A DNA stretch of 64,000 nt from Mesostigma viride. Taxonomy: Eukaryota; Streptophyta; Mesostigmatophyceae; Mesostigmatales; Mesostigmataceae. Where the stretch lies: assembly GCA_009746045.1 (NCBI GenBank), contig RPFO01000312.1:82001-146000 (forward strand), given 5' to 3'. Position numbers and translations under genes: made by a program. Below are positions 9,625 through 64,000 of this stretch, in pieces (the first letter of the stretch is position 1; each line of letters starts with the position of its first letter). Below the pieces are notes generated by a model. That model was not told where the DNA came from, ran no database searches, and worked only from the letters and a program-made list of their open reading frames with translations.

Positions 9625-9766
9625 GACCCCCCCCTCCCGGGCGTTATCTCCGGGAATGTCGCAATTATAAGGTTTTAATAAGAAAAATTACAAGAACAGG
9701 AAATTAGAACAAGGAAAACAAAAAGGAAAAACCTTTAATAACATAAGAAAAGGAAAACAATTGAAA

Positions 9767-10703: not shown

Positions 10704-10716
10704 TGCATAAGGCGAA

Positions 10717-29734: not shown

Positions 29735-30669
29735 GAATGCAGGCCATGCTGATCAAGAGGGCAGGTGCATGGTTTATCAAGATGGAGGGTGGTAACAACT
29801 ATCCACAGCAGATCATTGTTGATGCCCTCTGAGCAGCCCATTATATGCCCACCAGGCTAGGTGTGCCACTATCAGGCATGGCATGGCTAGCTATAGCATC
29901 TGTGCCCCAGATCATCTGAATTGTTGGTGTTGAGTACAGTAGGCTCTGACTGATACCCAGCTGGTAGAGCTAGGTAGGGGCTGAGCAGCTGGTTGAGTCT
30001 GTCAGGATGGAGCTCATCCCCGCTCATTTTGGCAGCTCGGTAGACCTGTACAAGCCAATCAACACGGTGCTCTATTTGGACAGTTCCATGGACAGCAGGA
30101 AGGTGACGGATGTCAGGGGCAGGGCAGCAGCACCCATTACATTACAACAGGAGCACACTTCTCTGGTCAGCTGGTACATACAGTCGGTTGCATGCAGAAC
30201 AGGGTTACACCCAGCAATAACATCGCTGAGTGAGGGCAATATGTGAAGGGCTACACACTGCTCTTTGCCTCAGGGAGTTATTCTACCAGCTCTGTCAGGT
30301 AGCTTCCTGTAGCTTGCAGCTGCACACACTGGTCAAGACATGCAGATGTCCAGCATGGGCACATTGGTGCAGTTTGTGCACGTACAGACATGCAGCTCGC
30401 CAGGAGCAGGGATCTTGATTATTTGTTGCTGAAGGAGATGACTTACCTTGCTCATTATTATTGAACATGTGCCTGCAGCATGTGGACAACCCAGCAGACG
30501 CCCTCATCGGCTCACCAAGCTGGAGTGCAAGGCTAAGGCTGCTGCAATACCCTGTGCTCAAAGGGCTTTATGGACCCCTTCTCTGGTGGGCCATGAAGTC
30601 TGGACAGCCTTTCTATAGTTGGTGGCTGACGGCCAGTGCTGTTGACCCCAGGGGGGAAGGCAACAGGTA
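29735..30669 (+). pseudogene. Copia-type RNase H fragment
   Basis: Plus-strand remnant of the same pol region found at 42.5-43.3 kb (minus). Segments: MLIKRAGAWFIKMEGGNNYP (about 29750), DLYKPINTVLYLDSSMDSRK (about 30046), RGRAAAPITLQQEHTSLVSW, ELFYQLCQVASCSL, and near the end QHVDNPADALIGSPS (about 30478), the degraded form of the Copia hallmark 'H-V-x-G-x-D-N-x-A-D-x-L-T-K'. Several frameshifts are present. It ends in a purine-rich tract (AGGGGGGAAGG, 30650-30660) directly before the LTR-like repeat. Confidence 0.65.
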
Positions 30670-30930
30670 GATTTAGATGAACGCGGATCAGTGAGTTTCT
30701 GGTCTTCCCAAGATGTGATGTCAGATTGGAGCCATGGTTTCAACCAGCAGCTTTCAACCTTTACCACAGTTGCCTCACTACCCTGTGGTCACTAGCCTGA
30801 GGCGGCAGCACCCACGGACAGTGTTGGGAAAAGACACTTGGCCACTGCTGTGTCCGAGCCTTTCTAGGTTTCACCATTGCTGCCAGGCCTTGCGCGCCTT
30901 GGCAGGTCCGCCACTGTCAGTTTCCTTGGA
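30670..30930 (+). repeat. LTR-like repeat, left half (split by DNA transposon)
   Basis: Nearly identical to 63026-63290. It follows the Copia polypurine tract and is cut off at CCTTGGA, where the 10.2-kb element begins. Its continuation is at 41138. Confidence 0.75.
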
Positions 30931-30959
30931 GGGTGGTTTTACCGGATTAGGATACATTT
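30931..30959 (+). repeat. Left terminal inverted repeat
   Basis: 29 bp, perfect complement of 41109-41137. Inner motif GGATTAGGATACATTT is repeated at 30966-30979. Confidence 0.85.
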
Positions 30960-31333
30960 TTTTGTCTAGGATACATTTGATGCACTGTGCAGTTTTCAGA
31001 TGTGTTTGTGGGGGTTGATTGCGCCTAGCATGCATTTTATTGAAGCAATGAGTTTCCCAAGATATACATTATATAAACTAAGACAATTGACCCATTAACG
31101 CAATGAGACAACATCAATGAGACAACATATGCCAATTGAAGGCTGCCCGCAACTTTATTCCAAGTTCATTATTATATGATTCCAAGACCATAACTCTTCC
31201 AAGACCGTACATCTTCAAGATATAGCACTACAGACACCCACGCGGCTTCCGCGGTCATCACGCTCCTCCTCCAAGACAACTCAACCTTACAGGACGTTGG
31301 GCCATCATACGTCCGGAATAATTGTGTCACTTA

Positions 31334-31640
31334 TTACATAACCAAACTTTTTGAGGGATCGCCATGGTTGCATGGTTTCAACACATGCGCCCTGCACTCA
31401 TGTGCATCAAAGGTGTTGCGTAGTGCCAACTCAGTGTCAAAGAACTGATTCAATAATATTTCCCGTATGGCCATGAAGGCCCACATGAGTTAAACATGGC
31501 CGAGAGTGATTGCATCATCCTTCTTGGCGACATCGGTCTTGACGACGTCGATGGGGAAGACGGCAGCACCTGCATGTGAACAAAAGAATCCATGAACTGT
31601 GGCATCCAAAGGCAACAACATATTAGCATCCCATTGAACA
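31334..31640 (-). pseudogene. 3' end of an ORF inside the transposon, unrecognised
   Basis: Read on the minus strand, ANMLLPLDATVHGFFCSHAG and FPIDVVKTDVAKKDDAITLG run to an in-frame TAA at 31490-31492. After it, WAFMAIREILLNQFFDTELA, LRNTFDAHECRAHVLKPCN and two tandem stops at about 31331-31336 follow. The composition is clearly protein-like on both sides of the internal stop, so this looks like the C-terminal end of a decayed element-encoded protein. I do not recognise the family. It may have been continuous, or spliced, with the coiled-coil ORF at 32729-33354, with the minisatellite lying in an intron or expanded exon. Confidence 0.4.
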
Positions 31641-31659
31641 CGAAGCCACGCTGACCCGG

Positions 31660-32662
31660 CCATCCAGCCGCCCACGCAGCCACAGAGCCAGCCAGCCACG
31701 CAGTGACGCACCCACCCAGCCACACATCCACGCATCCACGCACCCGGCACCCCCCCCCCCCCCAGCCAGCCACGCAGCCACGCAGCCACGCAGCCACGCA
31801 GCAGCGCAGCCACGCAGCCACACAGCCACGCACCCTCCTTTCCAGCCACGCAGCCACGCAGCCACGCAGCCACGCAGCCACGCAGCCACGCAGCCACGCA
31901 GCCACGCAGCAGCGCAGCTACACGCAGCCACACAGCCACGCACCCTCCTTTCCAGCCAAGCAGCCACGCAGCCACGCAGCCACGCAGCCACGCAGCAGCG
32001 CAGCCACGCAGCCACACAGCCACGCACCCTCCTTTCCAGCCACGCAGCCACGCAGCCACGCAGCAGCGCAGCCACGCAGCCACACAGCCACGCACCCTCC
32101 TTTCCAGCCAAGCAGCCACGCAGCCACGCAGCCACGCAGCCACGCAGCAGCGCAGCCACGCAGCCACACAGCCACGCAGCCACGCAGCCACGCAGCAGCG
32201 CAGCCACGCAGCCACGCAGCCACGCAGCAGCGCAGCCACGCAGCCACACAGCCACGCACCCTCCTTTCCAGCCACGCAGCCACGCAGCCACGCAGCCACG
32301 CAGCCACGCAGCCACGCAGCCACGCAGCCACGCAGCCACGCAGCAGCGCAGCCACGCAGCCACACAGCCACGCACCCTCCTTTCCAGCCAAGCAGCCACG
32401 CAGCCACGCAGCAGCGCAGCCACGCAGCCACACAGCCACGCACCCTCCTTTCCAGCCACGCAGCAGCGCAGCCACGCAGCCACGCAGCAGCGCAGCCACG
32501 CAGCCACACAGCCACGCAGCCACGCAGCCACGCAGCAGCGCAGCCACGCAGCCACGCAGCCACGCAGCCACGCAGCCACGCAGCCACGCAGCAGCGCAGC
32601 CACGCAGCCACACAGCCACGCACCCTCCTTTCCAGCCAAGCAGCCACGCAGTCACACAGTCA
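31660..32662. repeat. GCAGCCAC minisatellite with higher-order structure
   Basis: An 8-bp monomer (GCAGCCAC) makes up about 1 kb, punctuated by GCAGCAGC variants and by about nine copies of CCCTCCTTTCCAGCC, giving irregular blocks. Both strands stay open for hundreds of codons (Ser-His-Ala-Ala-Thr-Gln peptides on plus, Ala-Ala-Trp-Leu-Arg-Gly-Cys on minus). Confidence 0.95.
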
Positions 32663-32728
32663 AACCCCCCCTACCCCCCCCCCCCCACACACCCCCCCAC
32701 CCCACCCACTCAACACTACACGAATGAC

Positions 32729-32864
32729 TCACAAAGAACTGCTGCACCACCGATGATCCCTGCGGGAACTGCTCTGCTGCTGACGGTCCCTGCGAAAACT
32801 GCTGCAGTGCCGACAATGCCTGTGGAAACTGCGACATTGCCGACGCTGCCTGCGGGAACTGAAG

Positions 32865-32930
<66 letters not shown>

Positions 32931-32967
32931 AGTTGTTGCTGCAGTTGCTGCTGCAGTTGCTGCTGCA

Positions 32968-33006
<39 letters not shown>

Positions 33007-33354
33007 GCTGGACCACTTGTTTCTGCACCTCTTGACGCAGCTGCAAACCAAGCTCTTCAACCTTCTTGCTTTGGTTCTCCATAGCTCGTTGCATCTCTCT
33101 CATCGTCTGTTCCACGCCCACCAGTACGGGGGTCGGCGGCGGCAGCGGCTGGGTACGCTCTGGCTGGGTGCGCTCTGGCTGCCGTGCAGGACCTTGCCAC
33201 ATCGGCCGGCGCATTGGTGGTTTGCACCGGCCAAAAAATCTACTTTCATGGCACCAGATTTCTTTCCTAGCACCCATTTTCTACAATCGTCCCCGGCATA
33301 ACACAAATCAATCAATTCGTCCATGTCATCGCTTCGGCTATCAGCATCGGGCAT
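32729..33354 (-). pseudogene. Coiled-coil, poly-Gln ORF inside the transposon
   Basis: The minus strand from ATG 33354 reads MPDADSRSDDMDELIDLCYA then KKSGAMKVDFLAGANHQCAG. The reading must shift frame near 33200-33240 to continue as PVLVGVEQTMREMQRAMENQ and KKVEELGLQLRQEVQKQVVQ, a convincing coiled coil, followed by about 45 Gln (a CAG/CTG array) and a Ser/Arg-rich end. A poly-Leu frame on the other strand is a shadow. The N-terminus with two Cys pairs could be a small zinc-binding unit, but this is weak. Function unknown; probably element-encoded, together with 31334-31640. Confidence 0.4.
32868..33003. repeat. (CTG)n trinucleotide array
   Basis: About 45 CTG units interrupted by four CAGTTG blocks at 32930-32973. 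It encodes poly-Gln on the minus strand. Confidence 0.93.
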
Positions 33355-33529
33355 AGTTCCCGTGGCTAGTGCCCATCATTCTTTCCACCTTGAGCGGGGC
33401 GAAGTCACGAATTCAAGCGCGAAGTGCATTTGAATCAAGCGGGAACTGGGTGACACTGCTTGAAGACGTGCAGCTCCAAGGCATGCAAATGATGCAATGT
33501 ATGAAAGATACGATACGCAAAGTTCAGGT

Positions 33530-35155
33530 GTTCAGGTGAAGCCGTGAAGACGTGGTGAAGACAGGTGAAGACGCGGTGAAGACGTGAAGACGTGAAGACG
33601 TGAAGACGTGAAGACACGATACGGCAAGTTCAGGTGAAGTTCAGGTGTTCAGGTGAAGCCGTGAAGACGTGAAGCCGTGAAGCCGTGAAGACGTGGTGAA
33701 GACAGGTGAAGACGCGGTGAAGACGTGAAGACGTGAAGACGTGAAGACGTGAAGACGTGAAGACACGATACGGCAAGTTCAGGTGAAGTTCAGGTGTTCA
33801 GGTGAAGCCGTGAAGACGTGAAGCCGTGAAGCCGTGAAGACGTGGTGAAGACAGGTGAAGACGCGGTGAAGACGTGAAGACGTGAAGACGTGAAGACGTG
33901 AAGACGTGAAGACACGATACGGCAAGTTCAGGTGAAGTTCAGGTGTTCAGGTGAAGCCGTGAAGACGTGAAGACGCGAAGACGTGAAGACGTGGTGAAGA
34001 CAGGTGAAGACGCGGTGAAGACGTGAAGACGTGAAGACGTGAAGACGTGAAGACGTGAAGACACGATACGGCAAGTTCAGGTGAAGTTCAGGTGTTCAGG
34101 TGAAGCCGTGAAGACGTGAAGCCGTGAAGCCGTGAAGACGTGGTGAAGACAGGTGAAGACGCGGTGAAGACGTGAAGACGTGAAGACGTGAAGACGTGAA
34201 GACGTGAAGACACGATACGGCAAGTTCAGGTGAAGTTCAGGTGTTCAGGTGAAGCCGTGAAGCCGTGAAGACGCGAAGACGTGAAGACGTGGTGAAGACA
34301 GGTGAAGACGCGGTGAAGACGTGAAGACGTGAAGACGTGAAGACGTGAAGACGTGAAGACACGATACGGCAAGTTCAGGTGAAGTTCAGGTGTTCAGGTG
34401 AAGCCGTGAAGACGTGAAGCCGTGAAGCCGTGAAGACGTGGTGAAGACAGGTGAAGACGCGGTGAAGACGTGAAGACGTGAAGACGTGAAGACGTGAAGA
34501 CACGATACGGCAAGTTCAGGTGAAGTTCAGGTGTTCAGGTGAAGCCGTGAAGCCGTGAAGACGCGAAGACGTGAAGACGTGGTGAAGACAGGTGAAGACG
34601 CGGTGAAGACGTGAAGACGTGAAGACGTGAAGACGTGAAGACGTGAAGACACGATACGGCAAGTTCAGGTGAAGTTCAGGTGTTCAGGTGAAGCCGTGAA
34701 GACGTGAAGCCGTGAAGCCGTGAAGACGTGGTGAAGACAGGTGAAGACGCGGTGAAGACGTGAAGACGTGAAGACGTGAAGACGTGAAGACACGATACGG
34801 CAAGTTCAGGTGAAGTTCAGGTGTTCAGGTGAAGCCGTGAAGACGTGAAGCCGTGAAGCCGTGAAGACGTGGTGAAGACAGGTGAAGACGCGGTGAAGAC
34901 GTGAAGACGTGAAGACGTGAAGACGTGAAGACACGATACGGCAAGTTCAGGTGAAGTTCAGGTGTTCAGGTGAAGCCGTGAAGACGTGAAGACGCGAAGA
35001 CGTGAAGACGTGGTGAAGACAGGTGAAGACGCGGTGAAGACGTGAAGACGTGAAGACGTGCATGCAAGGTATCAAAGATACGATACGCCGCAAGTTCAGG
35101 TGAAGTCGTGAAGACGTGAAGACGTGAAGACGTGAAGACGTGAAGACGTGACACT
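33530..35155. repeat. GTGAAGAC minisatellite with 149/141-bp higher-order repeat
   Basis: The 8-bp monomer GTGAAGAC is arranged in larger units. The landmark CGGCAAGTTC recurs at 33622, 33771, 33920, 34069, 34218, 34367, 34508, 34657, 34798 and 34939, giving spacings of 149 bp six times, then 141, 149, 141 and 141. The difference of 8 is one monomer. A diverged terminal copy sits near 35085. Variant monomers (GTGAAGCC, GTGGTGAAGACAG) keep fixed positions in each unit. Confidence 0.95.
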
Positions 35156-36292
35156 ACATTTCGCCACCGCGGAAACCCAATTTATGCGAGAATGTGGTTC
35201 CGTCAATACGGCGGGGGTTACAAATTCAATTTCGAAGTTCGGCACCGTCGGATACCAGTAAAGCAACACTTGTTATCTAGAATCGCGCCATTTGGCATCA
35301 ATTGGCCAGTTCTGAAAATTCGATGAAATCTCTAGTCCTTGGTCGAATATTTCCCTCCGATTCCGATGACGAAATTTGAGTACGAATTTCTTAGTACAGT
35401 CCACCGTTTTGTTCGGTTCAGTATATTCCCACGCCGCTTGCTGACCTGACGGAGGCCGAATTCGTACTGAACACTAGCGAAAGTGCGCTCGATACTAAAA
35501 ATTGCTACATCCGAGATGTCTGACGGAATTCCTGCTAGGTCCATGCTTTGGTACTGGACGGATGCTGAAAATCACTGTGGCTCTGTCCGAACGAGGAAAA
35601 TTGTCAGAAATCTACTCTCGATACGAACGTAACGAAATTTCCTAGTATCTGACGCTCGGAGACCTGCCACCGTTTTCCCCTACTAGACCGAACCACATTC
35701 CCCGCTAAAAAAGGTGTCCTAGGCGGCGAAATGTAGTGAAGACGTGAAGACGTGAAGACCAGGACTGACACGTGAAGACTGGGACGTGAAGGCAAGTTGC
35801 AGCACTCGGCCGCTGCAGTCGCACGCAGGTAGAAACGAGTATTGCTGCTTGAATCTGTCAAGACCCCATCGAATGTAAAACAGGTTTTTCGTAAAGAAAT
35901 CCGATTTGTGGGCGGGCTTTACATATTGCTTCTGTCCAAGCACTACCGGATGTAAAACAGTATACTTCTTGAAGAAATAAGTTGGGGCTTTGTTGGGCGT
36001 CACATTTGACCGGTGGGCGGAGTTTCCTGCTTCTGTGAAGGCGCCATCGAATGTAGATCAGTAGATTTTCTAAAGAAATCTGAGTTGTGGGCGGGGCCTT
36101 TATTGCTTGTGTCCATCCACCACCGGATGTAGAACAGTAGACTTATTGAAGGTGAATCACGATACAACAGCTGTAGTTGACAACATCATGACCGGCACAT
36201 CTTTCCCCCACCGCTGCTCAACCCGGTCCCCCCCAAACTCCTCCACACTTGCCCACCTTTCCACCCTCCTCCACGGCCCGTTGTGTTTGCAG
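35156..36292. other. Non-coding interior of transposon with tandem motif block
   Basis: No gene recognised. 35867-36152 holds two ~107-bp copies (spaced 179 bp), each with two submotifs of the form CGRATGTARAACAG...AAAGAAATC. Confidence 0.45.
35867..36152. repeat. Duplicated ~107-bp block
   Basis: Copy 1 at 35867-35976 and copy 2 at 36046-36152 share CATCGAATGTA, TAAAGAAATC, TGTGGGCGGG and CCGGATGTA in the same order with scattered substitutions. Confidence 0.75.
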
Positions 36293-37068
36293 GCGTCGGC
36301 ACAAAGGGAGGAGGCCGTGCGAGCCGGGAAACTCACGGTATGGTTTGATTTCTAGTTTTGTATTAGGACCCTAGGGTAGCTATGTTATATAGGCATGTCT
36401 GACAGCATAGCTCACCATTTCATTACCATGGGATGCTGAGCATACCATTTCCAGAGAGGTAAGTCAGTCACTCTTCGCAGTTGACAAGTCAGAGAAAGCA
36501 ATCAAGTGCAGCGTTCACAACTCTTGCCGCTCGTAACCTTTTGTCTGCCCTGTTTGGCAGCTCCCTGTCTTTGCTTTCTCTCGTATTTCTTTCTTTTGTC
36601 TCTTTTCTACATCTTTCTTTGCTAATTCTTGAATATATGATGCTATTGTAGCATCCTTCTAGCGCGGATCGCTCTTAATATCCTTCTCGCGCACGTTTCC
36701 TCGCTTTTTCTCATGTAAGAGCGTCTTCCCTGCCCATGCAGCGTGTACCTGGTGTGTGTGGCTCTGCCTTGCCAATCACAACTGACCGACATGCTGGTCA
36801 GGCACTGCAGGTCGTTGCCCTTGCGTGTGTGAACCTGCTGTTTTGGCTGTTCCCATGGCCGCTGCGTGTGTCCGTGAATGATACCATGGGAGGGAGACTT
36901 CTCCCATGGGTCCCCTTCGCTGACACTCGTGATGTAGGTTCGCGTCGACTTGTTTCTCTCACTGTGCCCATATTGGCCTCGCACGGCTTTGTCTCTCATT
37001 CCTTGTTTGCATGCGGCGGCGTGTAGACCATCATCTTCATCCGAGACCGCAACAGCAAGGGCCAGGAG
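36293..37068 (+). pseudogene. CFAP299: Two exons of CFAP299 (cilia/flagella-associated protein 299)
   Basis: Exon A 36293-36337 (acceptor TTTGCAG, donor ACG/GTATGG) reads ASAQREEAVRAGKLT. Exon B 37027-37068 (acceptor GGCGTGTAG, donor GAG/GTGAGT) reads TIIFIRDRNSKGQE. Both are in phase 0 at both ends, so they join as ...AGKLTTIIFIRDRNSKGQE. This is the most conserved stretch of CFAP299 (C4orf22), where animals have 'REE-x-x-R-S-G-K-x-x-S-V-I-F-I-R-D-R-N-S-x-G-Q-E', a protein of motile cilia. I find neither the upstream exons nor the following 'SGYIDYAHRLK' exon. The two exons lie entirely inside the proposed 10.2-kb transposon, which suggests a captured genomic fragment rather than a working gene. 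The alternative is a resident gene with very long repeat-filled introns. Confidence 0.7.
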
Positions 37069-37239
37069 GTGAGTAATTGCTGAGGGCATGGCTCCTATCC
37101 CTTGATGAGTCTAGCGCCATGTACCACCCTCTATGCCTGCATATAGGTGACGCATTGAAAATGCAAGCATCTTACTAGAAGTAGCACGGGCCTCCGAGGT
37201 GAGATTCTGCGCAGGCCTCATGATCCCAATGGACCTGCG

Positions 37240-38235
37240 AAGCGCATGGCGCGCATGGGCGGCCGGCCGGCGCAGCTGGCATGCGGCGGGGCGGGGCTGT
37301 CGACGGGCGGCGGGGCAGGGCCGTCGGCGCGCGGGGGGCCAGCGGCGCTGCCGGTGCGCGCGGGCGGCGGGCCGGCGCACCTGGCATGCGGCGGGGCAGG
37401 GCTGTCGACGGGCGGCGGGGCGGGGCAGTCGACGGGCGGCGGGGCAGGGCCAGCGGCGCTGCCGGCGCGCGTGGGCAGCGGGCCGGCGCAGCTGGCATGC
37501 GGCGGGGCGGGGCTGTCGACGGGCGTCGGGGCAGGGCTGTCGACGGGCGGCGGGGCAGGGCCGTCGGCGCGCGGGGGGCCAGCGGCGCTGCCGGCGCGCG
37601 CGGGCGGCGGGCCGGCGCACCTGGCATGCGGTGGGTCGGGGCTGTCGACGGGCGGCGGGGCGGGGCAGTCGACGGGCGGCGGGGCAGGGCCGTCAGCGCG
37701 CGGGGGGCCAGCGGCGCTGCCGGCGCGCGTGGGCGGCGGGCCGGCGCAGCTGGCATGCGGCGGGGCGGGGCAGTCGACAGGCGGCGGGGCGGGGCAGCCG
37801 GTGCGCGGCGGGGCGGCGCCGTCGGCGGGCGGCGAGGTGGCGCAGCCAGCGCGCAGCGAGGTGGCAGCGGCGGCGCAGCCTGCATGCGGCGGGGCAGGGC
37901 TGTCGACGGGCGGCGGGGCGGGGCAGTCGACGGGCGGCGGGGCAGGGCCGTCGGCGCGCGGGGGCCAGCGGCGCTGCCGGCGCGCATGGGCGGCGGGCCG
38001 GCGCAGCTGGCATGCGGCGGGGCGGGGCTGTCAACGGGCGGCGGGGCAGGGCCGTCGGCGCGCGGGGGGCCAACGGCGCTGCCGGCGCGCGTGGGCGGCG
38101 GGCCGGCGCAGCTGGCATGCGGCGGGGCGGGGCAGCCTGTCGACGGGCTACGGGGCGGGGCAGCCGGCGCGCGGCGGGCCGGCGGCGCAGCCGGCGGGCG
38201 GCGGAGCGGCGGAGCGGCGGAGCGGCACAGCCGGT
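37240..38235. repeat. GC-rich minisatellite, ~84% G/C-like, open in several frames
   Basis: Units of roughly 110-170 bp recur, built from GGCATGCGGCGGGGC, CTGTCGACGGGCGGC, GGGCCGTCGGCGCGCGGG and CCAGCGGCGCTGCCG. Three plus frames and two minus frames remain open for 160-330 codons because unit lengths are near multiples of three and stops are rare. I regard these frames as non-genic. Confidence 0.9.
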
Positions 38236-38257
38236 GCCTGAAAAACGCGGTCGCTCA

Positions 38258-39788
38258 ATGAAGGTGCACCACGCCGTCTTCTTCCAGGTACAGGGCAACA
38301 CAGAGACCTGGTTGTCCTACCGGACCACGGAGTCCCAAAAGACGCCGTGGCAGCCCGCGGGGACTCGACAGGAAGGCGCGCCACGGTGCGGGAAGGCGAT
38401 GACACAGCCATACAGGTTTGATGCGGAGGGGCGGCCGCTGTTTGGCGTCCGACTTGTGGATCCAGACCGCATTCCGATGTTGCAGGACACCCCAGCCTTC
38501 GCACCATTGAACATGGAGTTTCTGGGGAAGGAGCTGGAGTCGATCAAAACAAGGGTCGAGAAGTTGCCCCATGGCATCTGGCAGTGGTACTTTCCGCCCG
38601 ACACCATCAAGCCAAACAAGGCCTTTTTTCGCAAGTCAAGTCCCACATGCCCCTGAGGAGGTGCCTGAGGAGTGGCGCCCTTTGCCGTGGCCATCTCGCG
38701 CGGACATCTCCGCCCTGCGTGAGCACGATGCAGCGCCTGAACCACCACCGACGCAAGAAGAGCACTTCATGGCGTTGGTCGACGCAGAGGCGGTGCGCGT
38801 CACCCCGCTGGTAGACCGAGTTCGTCATGATGGCCACACACAGCAGGAATGGGCGGCAGAAGACAGGGCCATGGCAGCCAAGGTCGCTTACTTGAAGCGC
38901 ATGCAAGGCGTTGAGAAAGGCTCCGCTGTTCTATACTGGCACCCTTCAGCTGGTATTCTCTGCAACTCGAAGCTCACGTGGACTCCAGTCCTCGTTGGCA
39001 TCATCAAGGAGGTGGTTGCGAAGGAGGATGGCGGCCAACCTTCTATTGAGCTCTTTGTATACCGCGCTAAGCATTTGCATGACACGTGGCACCCGTGGAA
39101 TACAGACATTGCGCAATGGCCCCATCCGCCAACCACTGCGGCGCACACGGTGATCATCACCGCCTCAGACCTCGTCTTGACACAAGTGGTGGGCAAGCGA
39201 GGTCAGCCGCCCCATGGAGTCTCCTTGGGTGCGAACGAAAAGCTCACCAAGGAGTGCCTAAAGGCGCTGAAGGAGGTGCCCTATGACGCGGAACACCCGG
39301 TCGTGAAGTGGCAAGATGCTGAATGCTCGAAGGGCATCGTCGGCATGGCGAAGGCATGCTGGGAAGGCGTAACGCTGCAGGTCAAGAGTGGCAGCCGCAA
39401 CCTCGTAGGGCAAGTCGTGTGTCATTGGGCGTCGGAGCGTGTGACATCCGCGGACGGTCGCACCGAAAGCCGGGACGGCAGGTACCATGGTCGTGTCGCT
39501 GTTGTCGACACGCAAAACGACATGGTAGCCATGTACTGGGGTGCCCGTTGGGAGGAGGACGCGGTTTCTTGCGTGCCTCTCCACGAGCTGGAGGCACAGA
39601 TCTGCGGGTGCCCCGGTGTGGTCGTCCCTGCGTTGCAAGCGCCGGATATCACCCTGGCCGAGGCTCGATTGCGCGAGATGGTTCCACCCAGCGACGTTGT
39701 GGCGGAGAACAACAACGCAGGCGCCTCCCGGCGTCGGAAGCGAGCGCTCATCCTTGCCGATGACGATGACGACGACGACGACTGCTGA
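38258..39788 (+). pseudogene. Orphan ORF, ~500 codons, one frameshift, acidic C-terminus
   Basis: The first frame starts at ATG 38258 (MKVHHAVFFQ) and stops at 38654-38656; the protein continues in the next frame to TGA 39786-39788. The switch falls in a six-T run (38623-38628), where one T fewer would join AFF to ASQVPHAPEEV, so a sequencing error or recent mutation is likely. Visible parts: a helical stretch (FLGKELESIKTRVEKLPHG), an acidic/Pro-rich linker (EVPEEWRPLPWPSRAD), an ordered region (VLYWHPSAG, LFVYRAKHLHDTWHPWNTD) possibly of SH3-like type, RYHGRVAVVDTQNDMVAMYW, a basic cluster RRRKR and a terminal run of eight Asp. I do not recognise the family. A splice acceptor TTCTTCCAG at 38281-38289 could make this a downstream exon. 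Likely cargo or accessory gene of the transposon. Confidence 0.5.
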
Positions 39789-39789
39789 A

Positions 39790-40175
39790 GCGCAAGCAGC
39801 GTTGTTGTCATTGAGCTGCTCATGTGCTGCTGCTGCTGCTGTGCTGCCATGCTATTGCTGCTGCATTGCTGCCGTACTGCTGCTGTGCTATTGTGCTGAT
39901 GTGTTGCTGCATTGCTGCCGTGCCGCTGATGTATTGCTGTCGTGCTGCTGTGTTGATGCACTGCTGCATTGCTGCCGTGCTGCTGAGCTAGTACTGCCTA
40001 TTAGTGAATTTCCTATCAATGGACTATAGTCCACTGATAGGAAATTCAGGAATCGGCATACTAAGTTGCTGCTGCGCTGACTTGTGCTCCTGCTATGCGG
40101 CCGTGTTGATGTGCTACAGTTGTGCTGCTGCTGTGCTACGGTCATGCTGCTGCTGTGTTGCTGGGCTGATGTGTT
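39790..40175. repeat. Degenerate GCTGCTGTGCTG low-complexity tract
   Basis: Imperfect GCTG/TGCTGC repeats directly after the orphan ORF, interrupted by a 44-bp palindrome at 40005-40048. Confidence 0.85.
40005..40048. repeat. 44-bp near-perfect palindrome
   Basis: Begins TGAATTTCCTATCA and ends with its complement, centred on ACTATAGT, with one mismatched pair. It is sharply bounded inside low-complexity sequence, as if inserted. Confidence 0.85.
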
Positions 40176-41108
40176 GTTGCATTGATGTAGTGGCTATTGT
40201 TCCGCTACTACAATTTGCTACTGATGCCGCTGCTGGTGCTTTTTTGCATGTCAGTGCCCGCTATGTTCACACCACTGTTGCCGCGGTTGGTATCGCGTGA
40301 TTTCCACCGGTTGTGCGTTGACATGTGTTACTCATGCATTTGCCCCTATATTTGGTAGCACGCGGTTTCGCGTTAGTTAGGTGCAGACAGCTGCATGTAG
40401 ACAAACATCTTGTTTAAGTCGGTCAATTAACTGTTCTTGACGCATCATGGTCCAAGTCGACCGACCTGTAGGGACCAGTAGAGCAATTGTCTAGGAGAAA
40501 GAGCGTGATCGCTGCAGAAGCCGCGTGGCAGCCGTGGCTGTACCTGTAGTACGACCTGCATATATATGGATACTGTATTTGGATACTGGGTTGTTTATCA
40601 ATTCTGGTTTTAATTTATTTAGTGTACCTGGTGTTGGCATGCCAACTCAGTGCTAAACTACTTTATGCACAATGATGCAACTTGATGCTATAGTGACGTG
40701 CCACGATGTAACTTTATTAACTTCACCATTAGTCATGGGGTCAATAGGATTGCTCATTATGCCATGTTAACATGAACCATGGGTTACGTAATAGTGAAAA
40801 CAGTAATCATGATGCTCCACTTGAAGTCTCCAACATGGTCATGTTTGGAATTTTATTGATCATATTCACAATATATGAAAAGAGACAACAAACGTGGAAG
40901 CATGGCACGCCGAGGCCGATAATATATTCTGATACGCCGAGGCCGATAATATATGTGTGAAATATGAAAAGAGACAACATCTTTGGCAAGCATGATCATA
41001 TTATGTGTCTGATCAGAATATTATGCTTGCCAAACATATTAATGATATCGACCATGTCCAGAAACCATGTTTGCCAATGGTGCATTTAGGATACATTTGA
41101 AGCCGTGC
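40176..41108. other. Right interior of transposon, no gene seen
   Basis: AT-richer than the rest. It contains a direct repeat (GCCGAGGCCGATAATATAT at 40911 and 40936) and a fold-back TTTGGCAAGCAT...ATGCTTGCCAAA at 40980-41035. No coding region recognised. Confidence 0.4.
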
Positions 41109-41137
41109 AAATGTATCCTAATCCGGTAAAACCACCC
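41109..41137 (-). repeat. Right terminal inverted repeat
   Basis: 29 bp, exact complement of 30931-30959, followed by the GGA target duplication. Confidence 0.85.
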
Positions 41138-41522
41138 GGATGCATCAATCCAGCTAGACGTCTGTCCTTCCATGAATGACAGTAACGTTCTGGATTTATC
41201 CGTCATGACAAGTACCCGTACATCCCAGGCCTGCAGGACTACCAGTCCTGTGACATTAATTCTTGGCACCATCAACCAATACTGACCACAGTACCTCCTA
41301 GTGACAGTTGGTCCTGTGACACGTAACTTGTGATGGTTCACCCAACACTGCCACGTGCCCTGTCCCTCACGTGTCCTTAGTCCTGGTACTACTGTAGCGT
41401 CCGGCGGCATTACTTCGGGACTTGATATCTCTCAAGTTCCTTGTCCAAATAAGGTGTTTAGCACGGCGTTGGAAAGGCCACTTCAAGTATGATATGCTTA
41501 GCATATTGCATCACCAATATGC
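41138..41522 (+). repeat. LTR-like repeat, right half
   Basis: Matches 63291-63672 with few differences (for example two small insertions near 41150 and 41245). Together with 30670-30930 it makes the full repeat. Confidence 0.75.
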
Positions 41523-42440
41523 TAACTCCAACCCTTTCTTGTTTTGGAGCTGCAAGCTTCACACCATGACCAACCCATTCCTTGCTGCTTTGTTAAATGG
41601 ACAACTGGTTACCCTGGACTTATAACAAGCCTCATGAGTACCCCTTTTGCCACCCAGATGGTATCCTTCTTAGAGATCCATGGTTCAACCCTGCCATCTG
41701 ATCATTAAATTGACCTGCAGGTCATCCCCAACCCTTTCTTTTGCAACTGTACCTTGGCTTGGGTTTAAAATTAGGATATTGAATATTCCCTGGGCAACAT
41801 ATCCTGGATATCTGAATGAGAGGCCCTGACTACAGGAAAACGTATGACAGTGAGTTCCTGGTCTTCCCAGTTATCACTGGCGCCCGTTTCATGGCGCCCG
41901 CTCCCGAGCGTTCCAGGCATCATCCATCCAAATGTTCACCAATGGAAGCCACTTCAACACCACTGTGCCCCTGCTTGATGGGGAGCCCATGTCATCACTT
42001 GGTGTTAAAGCCCAGGAGTCATACATACATGCAGGCTGTGGCTCAACTACTAGGGAATCGAACCCTACCCCAGATTCCCCAGGTTAAACTTAACCTGGTC
42101 ACATTACAAACAACAAGAGAGATTCGGGCATACAACATGATTATGTTTTATTATAGAATATCCACCAAAACCAATGTTGAGTGTTCCCAGTGGACCAGCC
42201 TGCACCAGCAAGGCCCAACTGTCAGGTTGCAACACCATAATATCCAAGGTTGTCACTTATTCACAGAGAAACTAAACAAGAGAGATATGTAAAAACAACC
42301 TGGAAGAACTCTCAACATGGCCTGCCCTATCATGGCCTAACTGCCCGAGGCCAAAGGCATCCCACTGCGCTAATCCCTTACAGGAAAAGCTTGCTCCTGT
42401 TGAGCCTTCTACCTGCTTGGTGACAGGTATAGGCTACCTG
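41523..42440. other. Retroelement-derived non-coding region
   Basis: No domain found. On the minus strand its right end continues from the Copia RNase H through a purine-rich tract (complement of about 42440-42455). The piece at 42357-42415 also occurs at 63694-63748 in inverse orientation, so this is probably LTR or untranslated sequence of the Copia family. Confidence 0.45.
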
Positions 42441-42489
42441 CTGCCCTCCCCCCTGGGGACAACAGCACTGGTCAGCCACCAACTGGAAA

Positions 42490-43620
42490 AGGCTGGACTT
42501 TATGTCCCACCAGAAAAGAGGCCCATAAGCCCTTTGAGCACAGGGTATTGCAGCTCAGCCTTGCACTCCAGCTTGGTGAGGGCGTCTGCTGGGTTGTCCA
42601 CACCAGGCACATGTTCAAGATGAGCAAGGTAAGACATCTCCTTCAGCAACAAATAATCAAGATCCCTGCTCCTGGCGAGCTGCATGTCTGTGCACAAACT
42701 GCACCACGCCCATGCTGTCTGTCTTGACCAGTGTGTGCAGCTGCAAGCTACAGGAAGCTACCTGACAGAGCTGGTAGAATAACTCCCTGAGGTAAAGAGC
42801 AGTGTGTAGCCCCTCACATATTGCCCTGCGCTCAGCAATGTCACTGCTGGGTGTAACCCTGTTCTGCAACCTACTGTACCAGCTGACCAGAGAAGTGTGC
42901 TCCTGTTGTAGTGTAATGAGTGCTGCTGCCCTGCCCCTGACATCTGTCACCTTCCTGCTGTCCATGGAACTGTCCACATAGAGCACCATGTTGAGTGGTT
43001 TGTACAAGTCGACCACACCAGCTGCCAGTATGAGTGGAGGTGAGCTCCTGACAGACGCAACCACCTGCTCTGCCCCTACCTCAACCAGCTGAGCGTCTGT
43101 GAGCCTACGTACTCAGCACCAACAAATCTGGGGCACTAATGGTAGCTAGACATGCCAGGATACCCCTGATTGTGGCACACCTAGCCTGGGTAATGGGCTG
43201 CTGGAGGGCATCAATGATCTGCTGGGGATAGTTGTTACCACCCTCCATCTTGATAAACCAAGTACCTGCCCTCTTGATCAGCGTGGCCTGCATTCAACAA
43301 AACACCATGGGCTCATCCTTCTTCATGTGCTGGATCTTTCCCAACTCAAACCTCTTCTGGATCTTGGACAGAACTGAGTCCACCCACTCAGGAGGCCCTA
43401 GAAGGTGCAGGTCATCTCCATGCAGAGATGCAAACACAGGCAACCCTTCATGAGTACTCTGGAACAAGCAAGGATCAACTGGAGACACAGTAAAGCCACA
43501 GTGAGTTTTAAAAAACTTTTCCATGCTCTTTCTCCCGGATGATAGGGCTGGACCTGAGACCCTCCAAACCCTTGAGTATTCTGAGATATTTTGACTTGAT
43601 CTCTGCTCTCCACACCTTGG
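42490..43620 (-). pseudogene. Copia-type reverse transcriptase / RNase H remnant
   Basis: From right to left: an RT region with CGFTVSPVDPCLFQSTHEGL and VFASLHGDDLHLLGPPEW (GDD in place of the usual Y-V-D-D), then FELGKIQHMKKDEPMVF; then IKRAGTWFIKMEGGNNYPQQ; RNase H with LNMVLYVDSSMDSRKVTDVR, RVTPSSDIAERRAICEGLHT and RELFYQLCQ; and finally LLLKEMSYLAHLEHVPGVDN-PADALTK, the Ty1/Copia RNase H ending. Two or more frameshifts split it (43613, 43524 and 43293 boundaries). The upstream RT blocks, integrase and gag are not attached. A second, plus-strand copy is at 29735-30669. Confidence 0.75.
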
Positions 43621-47589: not shown

Positions 47590-49478
47590 ATGGCTGACGG
47601 TATTGAGCGAGGGCGACAAGAGGCCCATCGCTTCTCTCCTGCCCCTTCCCTCGTGGCAGCACTCGAGGCGGCAGAGAGAGCTACCCAAAATAACTCACGC
47701 CCGAGTAGTGAGCGTGGCTCTAGGGGGTCATCCCCGGCACAAAACCCACGGTTGGGAGGGAATTCCTCGGCGGCTGGTGGTGCACCTCCTGATAGCCCTG
47801 TAGTGAATCCCCTTAATGGACCACCAAGTGGAACATCCATCGCGGGATTGTCGGCGGGTCCGGCCCTGGGTGTAGGAGCCGGCGCGGGGGCGCAGGGGAA
47901 TAATGTGACCCTGCACTACGGTAGGAGTGGGGCCCTGCCTACGGTGCTGCCGCAACCTACATCATTGGCCACTTGGCCCAGCAGCGCCCCGGCGCCACCC
48001 TTGTATGATAGCCGATGGCGGTCTTGCCGCGCTGCGAATCGGGCGTCCTATCATGCGCCTGGACCCCTTGGGGCTAGCCCCCTCGGCCATGCCTCGCCAA
48101 TGACTGGGCAGGGCCAGGGCACCGTACGGACCGGTCGGTCTTCCTTCGGGGTCGCAGGGGAGGCAATTCCCCGGCCTCCCCAACTCAGCATACGTCCGCC
48201 TGGCTCCGGGTGACCCACGAGCGCAGCACCCAGCGGCCGGCCACCGCCGCCCATCATCATGCAAGCCGCGCCCACTACTCACATGGGTATGAGCACTCGG
48301 GTGAGGATGAGTGCAGCCCCCCGGCAGGTTACCCGCGTGGGCACACCTCGCAAGGTGTGGCCGGGCCCGGGAGACCCGCGAGTATCATGGGCCATCATGA
48401 CGATGATAGTCACAATGCAAGGCGACTACCACCGTTGCCCAAGCTGTCGGATATTCCCAAGTTTAAACCCGACTGCGCGTACCAAGAGTTTGAGGCTTGG
48501 GAGATTGCAGTGTCTCAGAAGATCGACATCTGGGAGACATACAATCGCAAGCTCTTGGATGAGGATATCAAGGTCAAGCTGGTGTCCAGCGAGGCACTGG
48601 CTCCCGATGTGTGACAAGCTCTCCATTGCGAAAGCGCCCGGGCCAATGGCTTCCCCAGCAGCTTGGCGGAATTATTTCGGCGAGCACGGGCCAAGTACCT
48701 GCCACCCGACCAAGACAAGCTGGACCGGAAGGCTTTGGGGGCGTTCAAGCAGGGGAACCTGAGCTATCGGGAATATATATGACCAAGTTCGAGCTTCTAG
48801 CGGGGCGGGTTGATGACCTGATGGGCCCAGAAGCCTTGGCAAGGTTCTATGAGGGCTTGCAACCCGAATTCCGGGATGAGGTGAAGCGGAAATTCGCCCA
48901 CCTCTCCTGGGCTCAATGGAACCTGCAGGACATCAAAACCTACGAAGCGGAGATAGCTCCCTTGGTGCAGCGGACCCCAAACCCCCGCGTGAATGCACTG
49001 GAACTCAATGAGCTGGGATTCGCCCCCGTGTGGGTGGATGAGCTACAGTACGAGGTCCTGGACATTAATGCCTTGGACACTTCCCGGATTCAGTGCCACC
49101 ATGCACTGCAACCGTGTGGGGCACATCAAACGCGAGTGCCCTGATCTCCCTCCGCTGGACCAGGCCCCGCCTGTGCAACGCAACAACTTCCAAGCGGCCT
49201 CCCCGCAAATGGCCTCGAGGCCACCACCGGCGCGAAATATGCGCTCAGCTCCCAGTGCGGGTGAGCGTGCCCGACGCTTGCAACAAGCGCGCCAACAGCC
49301 CCGGCTGTACCAACAATCCAAGGCGCCCCCAAGCGCCTACCAGCAAGGTGGGCATGCCCTCAACCAACTGGATGCCGCAGACGCGGCCGAGCCTGATGAT
49401 GGCTCTTCCGCGGCCGCATCCGGCCACCTGCGAGGCACCCCGGTGGACGAGGGGCCTGCAGGAGAGGCGTTGGACTGA
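47590..49478 (+). pseudogene. Gypsy gag with CCHC zinc knuckle
   Basis: Starts MADGIERGRQEAHRFSPAP, a disordered Ser/Gly/Pro N-terminus of about 200 residues. The capsid-like part follows in shifted frames: FKPDCAYQEFEAWEIAVSQK, then KYLPPDQDKLDRKALGAFKQ and VDDLMGPEALARFYEGLQPE, the usual retrotransposon-gag helices. Near 49095-49140 CNRVGHIKREC gives the C-x4-H-x4-C part of a zinc knuckle, with its first Cys in the preceding frame (QCHH). A Gln/Pro-rich tail ends at 49478. At least three frameshifts (about 48210, 48610, 49100). Confidence 0.75.
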
Positions 49479-49661
49479 GAGGCCGGGAGGGCACTCCGGG
49501 CGACACCTTACCCGGCCATAAAGAAGTCGCCCAAGTTTTGTTACCATGTAATGTGGTGACAGAGACCCAGGAATGGCAAGCGGAGCCTAGCGAAGGCCCG
49601 CGGCAACTACTCCTCTTCACTGGATCGAAGCCTACCAGACCCCCAGGGCTCTGGGCGTTGT

Positions 49662-50168
49662 TTGGAGGGCATCAAGGTCCTCATTGACAGTGGTGCGGCT
49701 ACCACCTTCGTCAGTGAGGCCATAGTGCAGCGCCTGGGAGTAACCCCGACTCCCCATACCGTTGCTCGGCGCGTGCGATACTCGGATGGCTACACTCAGC
49801 CATCCCCGGGCTATGTGGACTTGGCCCCTACCGTACAAGGCACCAGCGTGCCCATTCGCGCCACGGTCATTCCCTTACAAGCGGCTGATATCATCCTAGG
49901 GATTGACTGGCTGCACATATCCAAGGTGACCGTCTCTCCGTATCCCCTCCCCCGCATCGATGATATCTTTAATAAGGTGGAGGGCGCCAAGTACTTTACG
50001 GTGCTCGATTGTGCAGACGGTTTTTGGCAACTTCGGATCGCCCCCGAAGATTGCCATAAAACAGCCTTTGCCACGCCTTTTGGCCATTACCAATTCCGCG
50101 TGGCGGCCATGGGCTTGTGTAACAGCCCTGCCTCTTTTCAGATGCTCATGAACCACCTCTTTAGCTAG
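49662..50168 (+). pseudogene. Gypsy protease fused to truncated RT
   Basis: Retropepsin: IKVLIDSGAATTFVSEAIVQ (active-site D-S-G) and DIILGIDWL. Directly after it comes SPYPLPRIDDIFNKVEGAKY, then LDCADGFWQLRIAPEDCHKT and FRVAAMGLCNSPASFQMLMN, the middle RT blocks. The first RT blocks (about 120-140 residues in the family) are missing, yet the frame is preserved, so an in-frame deletion removed them. It stops at 50166-50168. Confidence 0.82.
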
Positions 50169-50172
50169 GTCG

Positions 50173-51526
50173 GTGATGGGCACTAGTCGGCTGCCCCAGG
50201 TCTCGGCAGACCTGCGCGACCCGACTATCCCGTGGGACCCGGGGACGCAGCCGTACAAACGCACCTGCGTGGCCATCTACTTGGATGACATCCTCATTTT
50301 CTCTCGCACGTTCGAGGAGCACTTGGAGGATGTTGCCGCGGTTCTGCAGATCATGGCGGATAGTAAACTGTCCGCCCGCCGCAGCAAGGTAGAATCAGGC
50401 CGCAGCGTCCCCTTTTTAGGCCACATTCTCTCGGACAAGGGCGTGTCCACGGACCCCGATAAGGTCGCCGCCGTCCAACAGTGGCCTGTTCCCGCGAATG
50501 TTCGCGCCTTGCGCAGCTTCTTGGGCTTGGTATCGTATTATCGCCGCTTCATCCCGCGTTTCGCGACCATCGCGGCCCCGCTTACTCACCTCCTCAAGAA
50601 GGACGTACCGTGGGAATGGTCAGGCCTGTGTCAACAGGCCTTTGACCTGCTGAAGGCCAGCTCGCCACTGCGCCTGTCCTCATCCTATAATTCCGGATCC
50701 CACCATGCAAGCCATTCGTGGTCAATAGCGATTCTAGCAAGGTTGCTATTGGCGGTGTGCTGCTCCATTGAAGACCATGGTCTCGGTCTCCAACCGGTCG
50801 AGTATATCTCCCGGACGATGATCCCGGCCGAAAGAAATTACCCGGTCCATCAGCAAGAGTTGTTGGCCGTGGTGTACTGTTGCCATACTTGGCGGCACCA
50901 TCTTCTGGGTGCTCAGTTCAACGTACGTGGCTATGGCCGAACCCGACCCTGCGGACCCGTACCGCTTGATCATCCAGACCGACCATCGGCCCCTCACGCA
51001 CTTGTTGACGCAGCCCACGCTTACGCCACGCCAAGCTCGTTGGCTTAAATATTTGGCACAGTTCGGTCCGTTCAAGATCGAATATGTCAAGGGCCTTGAC
51101 AACATGGTCCCTGACGCCCTGTCGCGTCGCCCGGTCGACTATTGGTTTTATGAGGATCTTGACGTTTTGGCCACGACGTTGATCCCCTCCCATGGTCCCG
51201 TCGCCCCCTTTGGCGACCGCTTGAGCGACCCAATGAGCCCCTTCCTCTTCTGTGGCGCCACAACCGCGGAGGTTGACACTGTTGACCATTCCGTGCGCCT
51301 CGCCGGCAGCACCCCTGCACGTGAGGGCACGTGCGCAGCCGCAGGGGGGGGAAGGACTTCGGCCCCGTACAGCCATGTGGTGCCGGCGACAGGAGTTTAC
51401 CCTCCAATGCAGCCCGTTGGAGAGGAATTCACGTTGGCAAATACTGCAACAACGGTCGTCATCAGCTCGGACCTAGAGCGCCTCATCTCGCGCTTCACGG
51501 TCACTGATCGAGGACAAGGCAAATAA
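50173..51526 (+). pseudogene. Gypsy RT catalytic core and RNase H
   Basis: CVAIYLDDILIFSRTFEEHL holds the RT YLDD box (about 50276). VPFLGHILSDKGVSTDPDKV, LRSFLGLVSYYRRFIPRFAT and FDLLKASSPLRLS follow the family order. RNase H appears in shifted frames: SDSSKVAIGGVLL (about 50715), VEYISRTMIPAERNYPVHQQ, ELLAVVYCCHTWRHHLLGAQ, then IQTDHRPLTHLLTQPTLTPR, YVKGLDNMVPDALSRRP (about 51085-51135). The frame then continues to 51526 without integrase motifs. Confidence 0.82.
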
Positions 51527-54594: not shown

Positions 54595-56168
54595 TGAAGA
54601 TCCACACTATATAGCTAGGGTGGTGGGTACTGAGAACATCTGCCCGCCCAGCATTCTCTTGCGCTGTCACAACATTCCTCATAGGCCCAACCGCCCCAGT
54701 ATCTAGCTGGGGCGCTGCAGTAGCGCTTGGTCGCTCGGCGTTGTACACACCCGACCTAGAAGGCACCACATTGCTTAGGTCACGCATTGTAGATCCGTGC
54801 TCAGGAAGCACGTGATCCTGGCGCGACAGTGCCAGAGCAGCATCAATGGATTGCGTGAGCACCATCGATCACGGAATGAGACAGAGGATGCAGTCACGTG
54901 GCTTTTAGGAACGACGTCAGGCTCTACGACGGCCCGGTTCAGCGTGACGCATTGAGCAAAAGAAGGGCCGGGTATCGAGCGTGCTCTCACCTGACTTTCG
55001 TGCTGCCCGTCGCTCTGCCCACTCCTCGCGGGTGCCGTGGACGACGATGCGCTTGGCCTTGCACGCCTCCACGCTGTGACCACGCAGAACGTCGTGGAAC
55101 TTGCGGCAAAGGTTGTCCTCGAGCTCCAGGTCCGGGCGAACCCGGCAGTCATCCCGGACATGGCGACGTCCGAAGCAGCGATCACAGCGTTGCTTGCGGT
55201 CAGTAGACGCCCCCTGCTGCCGCTTGGCCGGGGGATTATCGCCCTTCTTGTCGTCGCCACCATGCCCGCGCATGCACCCGCGCTGGCCCCCGTTGTTGCC
55301 GTGGCCGACGACCTTTTTCAGGATGGCCGTAAGCTCCGACCGCGTAATTGGAGCCTCTGCGCCTGAAGAAGAAGACGCGCCGGTATCCACCTTGCGCAGG
55401 GATGGCAGAGCGGCCGAGGCAGTCGGCTTGGACTGCGCACTCTTGAAGCATGAGATCAAATACAGCATGCCCTCGTCGAAACTGATAGCACTGTTCTTTT
55501 TGAGTTCCGTCGCTATGGTCAGATGCACATCCGACGACAGGTCGCATTTCTTGAGAAATCGATTGCACAGGAAAATGGGCTTGAGAGTATCTAGCAGCTT
55601 GTGCTTGTGCACGAAGACCTGGAAATCACGTGCAGCCCCGGGCAAATTCGCCTATTAACTGCATAGCCCTCGAAGTCGTTGAAGGCTTGCTCGTTGGCCT
55701 CTTCCTTAGACCGCGGCAAGTGGGCGTCCAGACCGTTGTAAAAAACTTCCCAGGAACTTTGCCTGTTGTCGTCGGCAATGCGAACTAAATTGGCAATGTT
55801 CGGGTGCTTGGTTGTACTGCAGAATACTGAACTGGCGGAACTTGCCAATCAGCTCCGAATCTTTGTCCGCACGTCCATCGCGCAGACGCTTGAGTGCAGC
55901 CAGAAAATCTGCTGCGTCGTCCGCCGTATAATCGGCAGGTAGATCAGCGGGCACCTCCGTTTGCTTCAGAATTAAGCCCGCGATTCAGAGCATCGTCAGC
56001 AGTAAGCATCAAATGCTTAAACTGCTTGGCCAGTTCAGGTTGTGCCACGAGGGTTTGCATCAGCCTCGTGGCCTCGTCCGCACTAAAGCGTGGCAGGACG
56101 GAGCCTGCGGCCTCGCCACTTGGCGTATCTGTGTGTTCTCCCGTGCGGCTCCGAGTGCCGGAAGCCAT
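54595..56168 (-). pseudogene. Second LTR-element gag, minus strand
   Basis: ATG 56168 begins MASGTRSRTGEHTDTPSGEA; then FSADEATRLMQTLVAQPELA, ADYTADDAADFLAALKRLRD, and after a frameshift QVFVHKHKLLDTLKPIFLCN and HLTIATELKKNSAISFDEGM. A basic Gly-rich stretch precedes CDRCFGRRHVRDDC and CRKFHDVLRGHSVEAC, two Cys/His units like zinc knuckles, ending near 54917 with another frameshift. There is no protease or RT after it. An LTR-like segment (56188-56545) sits about 20 bp upstream of the ATG, so this gag probably belongs to the LTR family that also forms the inverted-repeat arms. Confidence 0.6.
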
Positions 56169-56187
56169 CGGGACGTGTATGAATACA

Positions 56188-56545: not shown

Positions 56546-56548
56546 TGG

Positions 56549-57010: not shown

Positions 57011-57023
57011 TGGATCCTTGTGC

Positions 57024-57572: not shown

Positions 57573-57589
57573 CCCGTCATATTAGTAGT

Positions 57590-63025: not shown

Positions 63026-63672
63026 GATTTAGATGAACGCGGATCAGTGAGTTTCTGGTCTTCCCAAGATGTGATGTCAGATTGGAGCCATGGTTTCAAC
63101 CAGCAGCTTTTAACCTTTACCACAGTTGCCTCACTACCCTGTGGTCACTATATACTGAGGCGGCAGCACCCACGGACAGTGTTGGGAAATTAAGACGCTT
63201 GGCCACTGCTGTGTCCGAGCCTTTCTAGGTTTCACCATTGCTGCCAGGCCTTGCGCGCCTTGGCAGGTCCGCCACTGTCAGTTTCCTTGGTTGCATCAAT
63301 CCAGGACGTCTGTCCTTCCATGAATGACAGTAACGTTCTGGATTTATCTGTCATGACAAGTACCCGTACATCCCAGGCCTGCAGGACTGCCAGTCCTGAA
63401 GTCCTGTGACATTCTTGGCACCATCAACCAATATTGACCACAGTACCTCCTAGTGACAGTTGGTCCTGTCACACGTAACTTGTGATGGTTCACCCAACAC
63501 TGCCACGTGCCCTGTCCCTCACGTGTCCTAAGTCCTGGTACTACTGTAGCGTCCGGCGGCATTACTTCGGGACTTGATATCTCTCAAGTTCCTTGTCCAA
63601 ACAAGGTGTTTAGCACGGCGTTGGAAAGGCCACTTCAAGCATGATATGCTTAGCATATTGCATCACCAATAT
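63026..63672 (+). repeat. LTR-like repeat, uninterrupted copy (empty site)
   Basis: Continuous counterpart of 30670-30930 plus 41138-41522. The position equivalent to the 10.2-kb insertion is 63288-63293 (CCTTGG/TTGCATC). Confidence 0.75.
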
Positions 63673-64000
63673 GCAAACTGGTAGCCTGCCTGTTACCATG
63701 CAGGTAGAAGGCTCAACAGGAGCAAGCTCTTCCTGTAAAGGATTATCGGTCACGTCCGTGATCATTTACGTCCGTGCACTCGAGAAACGGCTGTGCACCC
63801 CGAATCATTTACGTCCGGTTCAGTTCCGTTGGTTTGGTTCCGCGGTAGCCGTTTGGCTTGGATTTGTTCAAGTCTGGGTACCGGCCGGTGTGAAGCGCCG
63901 CGCCGGATGCTAGTACTCAACTCCACGACGCTTGTGGCTATTCAGCGTACTTTTGTAGTATGTTCAGTCTACCGTTGGTAGATATCGGACGGCACAGCTA
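63673..64000. other. Window end, no gene seen
   Basis: The first ~75 bp (AGGCTCAACAGGAGCAAGCT region) matches 42357-42415 inverted. The rest shows only short frames and a direct repeat ATCATTTACGTCCG (63762 and 63804). Confidence 0.4.

Follow-up and report, generated by a model that had tools for sequence, protein, structure and literature searches.

The window analysed in the present study is a stretch of 64,000 nucleotides from Mesostigma viride (contig RPFO01000312.1), and it contains a 10.2-kb element at positions 30931 to 41137. With a probability of about 87%, this element is interpreted as a non-autonomous, Pack-type copy of a two-gene DNA transposon, which is bounded by terminal inverted repeats (TIRs) and whose transposase would carry the Pfam domain DUF7869. 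An earlier note on this DNA had described a transposon with no recognisable transposase family, which contained host exons and an orphan open reading frame (ORF). All three features would be covered by one explanation, namely replacement of the transposase core by host DNA.

The perfect TIRs of 29 bp and the 3-bp target duplication GGA, both claimed in that note, were confirmed (table 1), and the termini of the element read GGG..CCC. The motif TAGGATACATTT was found at positions 30948, 30967 and 41087, with a minus-strand occurrence at 41109, i.e. twice near each end. The subterminal motifs described earlier are therefore present at both ends, but one per end belongs to the inverted repeat, leaving one extra copy per end.

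The element had also been considered proven by its own empty site within the window. A repeat lacking the insertion, described earlier as LTR-like, is indeed continuous there: the left flank of the element corresponds to 63026–63290 (96.6% identity) and the right flank to 63289–63679 (95.2%). This is, however, a diverged paralogous copy of the repeat (95–97% identical) with GGT, as read by eye, at the position of the GGA duplication, and it counts as a related empty site rather than an allelic one. Sequence adjoining the element also recurs locally, as 42434–42759 is an inverted 84% match to approximately 30301–30670 beside the left end.

The genome assembly that was searched comprises 440 Mb in 2,243 contigs. 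It gave 33 matching stretches for the chlorophyll a/b-binding family, for which one of 14 control genomes (Synechococcus elongatus) was also positive, and together with an intron-containing DUF4464 gene these identify a photosynthetic eukaryote as the host. The 29-bp end gave 532 matches with up to three mismatches (261 + 271), while the reversed-pattern control gave none (0 + 0). When the first 100 end matches listed were examined for inverted pairs, as the note had proposed, 72 of them fell into 36 pairs, showing that the termini do not merely occur singly. At least 40 places in the genome matched the initial 200 bases with 100% identity (40 scored of 277 candidates). Twenty further copies were fetched, drawn from the perfect end matches in this identity-ranked list, and in 15 of these the right end was seen within the fetched 10 kb. 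The target duplication was read in 18 copies with both ends readable, including the window copy and two more elements; it was perfect over 3 bp in 17, and identity at 4 bases was seen in none. The 17 duplications were of 15 kinds, and comparison of the 200-bp left flanks of 23 copies revealed no shared match at E 1e-5. The earlier proposal of a multicopy DNA transposon with a 3-bp duplication was thus borne out, and inverted ends with a duplication of fixed length at many unrelated sites would place the element among the class II TIR transposons of the cut-and-paste type.

Segmental duplication or collapse of the assembly, rather than transposition, would agree with the very high identity among the copies and with an assembly of many small contigs. 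This origin is nevertheless highly improbable in view of the 15 different duplications, the unrelated left flanks, the related empty site in the window and the location of one end pair inside another on contig C777. The note had also raised an assembly error joining 30930 and 41138. Such a join at the window locus cannot explain the element, because inverted pairs with 3-bp duplications are present at other, unrelated loci. An assembly artefact or local duplication as the origin of the ends was ruled out by the genome-wide ends, the duplications and the unrelated flanks.

Three compared stretches (690, 1491 and 1071 bp) were identical to the window copy in 12, 12 and 9 of the 20 fetched copies, respectively, and nine copies equalled it in all three (3,252 bp). 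This near-identity shows a recent burst, suggesting that the element was recently active. Some copies have themselves been interrupted: one (L019) from approximately position 4592 by an apparent retrotransposon with an integrase/reverse-transcriptase ORF set, and another (L031+L032) at approximately 9,000–12,200 by an apparent Penelope-like one with a GIY-YIG-like stretch, both labelled by eye.

An end pair of 11.29 kb (L029+L030) has the same 29-bp ends and a TTG/TTG duplication, and carries no host exons. An open frame of this longer relative matched DUF7869 with an E value of 2.4e-16 (60.4 bits; curated cut-off 26), and the earlier statement that no transposase family is recognisable was thereby overturned, as the family can be named from a full-length relative. 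Because its DUF7869 frame is open, the relative is autonomous-looking. The putative transposase gene contains a predicted intron of 1,775 bp (donor CAG/GTTATC, acceptor GCACAG/CCG, the slash marking the splice site), which is filled by a GC-rich minisatellite, and splicing at these predicted sites yields a model of 1131 amino acids (aa). Unspliced ORFs of two other families are collinear with this model, L034 from a second family at 48.9% over 1022 columns and L036 from a third at 47.5% over 1006 columns; each is truncated where the fetched sequence stops. A DUF7869 match is also present in seven further pairs of ends measuring 10.5–12.5 kb.

The second gene of the relative is divergent to the transposase gene. 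It consists of a 929-aa open frame with a Cys-rich part followed by a glutamine-rich coiled coil, and its tail extends through repeats. A match of this protein to PHD remained below threshold (E 0.024, 15.1 of 24 bits).

Compared with the relative, the window copy and the class to which it belongs lack a segment that begins approximately 100 bp ahead of the start of the transposase and ends inside the intron; approximately 1.09 kb of the host DUF4464 gene stands in its place. The supposed orphan ORF would, by the same comparison, be the C-terminal exon of the transposase, frame-shifted by a net 4-bp difference at approximately 38624–38637. One large GC-rich minisatellite, previously counted as cargo with the others, was reassigned in the splice model as transposase intron. 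Acceptors just before 38287 or 38288 were rejected, as the anchor is absent from the relative and two unspliced homologues place the acceptor before 38231. Since exon 2 is frame-shifted and the second gene stops after 84 codons, both genes appear to be broken in the window copy, the second by truncation and the transposase gene by replacement of its core together with the frame shift.

The presence of host exons inside the element was upheld. The captured piece, with its introns, matched the parent locus (L040) at 98.5% identity across 1,096 alignment columns (12 mismatches, 2 gaps). The gene concerned carries the DUF4464 domain, and we take it to be CFAP299, which codes for a cilium protein. 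A search with the DUF4464 profile (best 150 of 162 candidates scored) gave five matches, three of them over the cut-off, all on contig C998 at 734980–757388; the short exons in the element were not listed by this search. The C998 locus is taken as the parent, being the only one found, and a further, diverged parent is possible. Exons A and B plus element sequence matched PF14713 (E 3.4e-8, 33.7 of 27 bits, residues 3–51), but this match overruns the two exons by approximately 22 residues into element sequence, and the DNA match to L040 is the firmer evidence.

The captured piece was found in 18 of the 20 fetched copies, and no match to it was seen in the other two (L015 and L019). A 39-base host tag taken from this piece occurred at 170 places in the genome (79 + 91; control 0 + 0), one of which is the parent. 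The first 100 of these places were listed, and the contigs of all 36 end pairs fall within them. The tag was present in 27 of the 36 pairs and DUF7869 in eight, while no pair contained both. The two classes also differed in size, as 21 of the 22 pairs of 8.7–10.1 kb carried the tag, while among the nine pairs of 10.5–12.5 kb DUF7869 was found in eight and the tag in one. The DUF7869 matches represent the best 150 of 275 candidates, and the absence of a match in a pair is accordingly weak evidence.

An alternative is that the exons belong to an ancient gene of the element itself, from which the host locus was derived, and the occurrence of the piece in most of the sampled copies would favour this. 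Against it, the five DUF4464 matches span profile positions 7–230 at one host locus while the element has only two internal exons, the longer relative is without the piece, and the sequence changes at the junctions from relative-like to host-like. An origin within the element is therefore very improbable. As judged by eye, the junctions share approximately one base on the left and up to approximately four on the right, which would fit template switching but does not prove it.

With a host gene fragment inside, the parent gene elsewhere and no intact transposase of its own, the window copy would qualify as a Pack-type element. A chimeric transcript is possible, because the captured exons share the orientation of the transposase gene and, by our own reading, the phase at the end of exon B is that of the exon at 38231. 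Neither of the two exons has an in-frame ATG, and a protein made from them is for this reason doubtful.

Table 1. Positions of the element, its parts and its related empty site in the window.
Feature	Position	Strand	Remarks
Left terminal inverted repeat, 29 bp (GGGTGGTTTTACC...)	30931..30959	+	Exact reverse complement of 41109-41137
Right terminal inverted repeat, 29 bp	41109..41137	-	Perfect match to left end
Target duplication GGA, left copy, 3 bp	30928..30930		
Target duplication GGA, right copy, 3 bp	41138..41140		
Left subterminal TAGGATACATTT	30967..30978	+	Possible transposase site
Right subterminal TAGGATACATTT	41087..41098	+	Possible transposase site
8-bp CCACGCAG minisatellite	31672..32622		
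Out-of-frame remainder of accessory (second) gene, glutamine-rich frame	32729..33280	-	
Truncated accessory gene	33100..33354	-	Start codon at 33354, stop after 84 codons; 929 aa from same start in relative
Minisatellite GTGAAGAC, 149-bp period	33544..35151		Between the two divergent genes; similar repeats likewise placed in relative
Nested insertion, ~585 bp, CACTACATTTCGCC termini	35152..35736		Inside GTGAAGAC minisatellite
Captured piece of host DUF4464 gene, introns included	36152..37245	+	~1.09 kb
Captured exon A (ASAQREEAVRAGKLT)	36293..36337	+	Splice signals by eye; found in parent locus with small differences
Captured exon B (TIIFIRDRNSKGQE)	37027..37068	+	Splice signals by eye; parent-locus match
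GC-rich minisatellite, predicted rest of transposase intron	37248..38230	+	Acceptor just before 38231 in splice model
Predicted transposase exon 2, C-terminal half	38231..39788	+	Includes the ORF formerly called orphan
Related empty site, paralogous repeat without insertion	63026..63679	+	

At a threshold of 300 bp, none of the 20 other copies matched the nested insertion listed in table 1, which looks like a small CACTA-ended non-autonomous element. Elsewhere in the window, ORFs resembling a Gypsy-type reverse transcriptase and pieces of a polyprotein were noticed by eye at 48000–51500 and 54900–57600.

MULEs are characterized by target duplications of 8–11 bp, and no duplication of 4 bp or more was seen in the 18 readable copies of the present element. 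Plant Pack-MULEs are likewise non-autonomous TIR elements with host gene fragments, and are reported to be mobilised in trans (PMC6431247). The element differs from these by its 3-bp duplication and its DUF7869-encoding relative, and also by its size, since the Pack-MULEs reported first were all no longer than 7 kb (PMC6431247), compared with 9–10 kb for the element class described here. The element resembles a Pack-MULE in the way it works, yet it does not belong to the MULEs.

Host sequence within a DNA transposon has also been described for Turmoil-1 of C. elegans. There it is reported to lie within the inverted repeats (PMC2572040), whereas in the window copy it replaces the transposase core. 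The giant DNA transposons of Ectocarpus (KDZ, EnSpm and Sola-1) are described as generally larger than 10 kb, often with a pseudogenised transposase, and some families are wholly non-autonomous and were compared with Pack-MULEs (PMC12477816). These giants belong to named superfamilies, whereas DUF7869 was not found in the literature searched, a search outside which Repbase and most subscription papers lay; PF25273, IPR057191 and two motif strings were likewise not found in it. A described name for this transposase group may possibly exist in Repbase or in a subscription paper.

A known superfamily with a 3-bp duplication (PIF/Harbinger, CACTA/EnSpm or Zator), with a transposase too diverged to be recognised, was weighed against a separate DUF7869 transposon. 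The duplication length itself would agree with such an assignment, and the GG-rich termini resemble Harbinger. The presence of two genes is shared with PIF/Harbinger (PHIS) elements, although in the available descriptions of these the genes are arranged tail-to-tail and not divergently as in the relative (PMC12730594, PMC12477816). However, a Pfam scan of the 623-residue core (L029:4700-6568, minus strand) with E values up to 10 gave only DUF7869 and one sub-threshold match, and neither a Harbinger transposase nor the ISAzo13-type profile expected for Zator was among the results. Four other families scanned with E values up to 1 also gave DUF7869, two of them with one additional sub-threshold match. 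A preference for TNA or ANT was not observed either, as one of the 17 duplications fits TNA and none fits ANT, and the termini are GGG..CCC, not the CAC..GTG of CACTA/EnSpm. Each of the three superfamilies thus appears to fail at least one tested feature, and membership of the element in any of them is considered unlikely.

DUF7869 was detected at at least 150 places in the genome (best 150 of 275 candidates scored, all 150 over the cut-off), and the matches cluster into several equal-scoring groups, the pattern expected if separate multicopy families are present. Five families were read and aligned, the others being 24–48% identical to the first. Residues D380, D475, G476, G477, N480 and N482 and the motif G509-H-T-H-x-D514-x-D516-Q-x-F-G (GHTHxDxDQxFG) are invariant in all five, making D380, D475 and D514/D516 candidates for an acidic triad. 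No DUF7869 was found in 14 control genomes, a set which says little about other eukaryotes.

A much diverged DUF7869 family (L037, L041 and L042; 24% identical to the main one) has a frame of 585 aa, with 13 equal-scoring copies among the matches listed. Two of its copies are 99.9% identical over approximately 7.6 kb, indicating a large repeat unit. The termini of this family were sought, and no boundary was seen.

Taken further, DUF7869 could be the catalytic domain of an undescribed eukaryotic DDE/D superfamily with at least five families in this genome, of which a Pack-type derivative took a cilium-gene fragment to up to 169 extra sites; we hold the odds of this broader proposal to be about even. 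Here it would be marked by a 3-bp duplication, termini reading GGG, a second gene in divergent orientation and an intron filled with minisatellite. The captured fragment would have been spread in the sense direction, placed after the stretch that lies ahead of the transposase start of the longer relative.

Several observations weigh against the interpretation of the element as a Pack-type copy of a DUF7869 transposon. Under a simple pairing rule no partner was assigned to 28 of the first 100 ends listed, two of which are the outer ends around the nested pair on C777, and one of the 36 pairs (C667:5467177-5476841) carries neither the host tag nor DUF7869. For the 169 non-parent tags, location in elements is established for those inside the 36 pairs. 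The right end was not seen within the fetched 10 kb in five of the 20 further copies, among them L016, where the right-hand portion lies inverted at 8239–10000 instead of a normal right end. In one copy (L010) the two duplicated triplets differ (CCT/CCA). In a fourth comparison, over 988 bp, none of the 20 copies equalled the window copy, which is approximately 47 bp longer; nine of them show no mismatches to it. Moreover, a sample drawn from perfect end matches overstates the mean identity among copies. The predicted fold of the window C-terminal half was uninformative, with a pLDDT (predicted local distance difference test) score of 39.8, and a sequence search of the PDB for the transposase matched no solved structure (best E values 0.51 and 0.17). 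Viral contigs yielded no transposase relative (one pattern had no match, and none of the 28 matches of another was confirmed), and none was confirmed among 112 pattern matches in prokaryote contigs.

In the mechanism proposed for the Pack-type element, the DUF7869 protein would act as a DDE/D-type transposase which binds the ends, possibly at TAGGATACATTT, and the element would be excised and then inserted after a 3-bp staggered cut. Copies of the broken class may be mobilised in trans by the protein of intact copies. Acquisition of the host piece probably took place when a gap inside an element was repaired by copying the host gene, and the resulting chimera would then have spread to further sites.

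These results offer a hypothesis for the function of DUF7869, a Pfam domain of unknown function with no fewer than 150 occurrences in this genome. Long and short partners that are nearly identical and reflect recent activity are now available as a set. They also suggest that capture of a gene fragment and its wide spread can be brought about by a TIR element of 9–10 kb outside the MULE setting. It can now be asked whether the single parent gene is influenced by the two exons present in approximately 170 copies in sense orientation, for example through chimeric transcripts or small RNAs.

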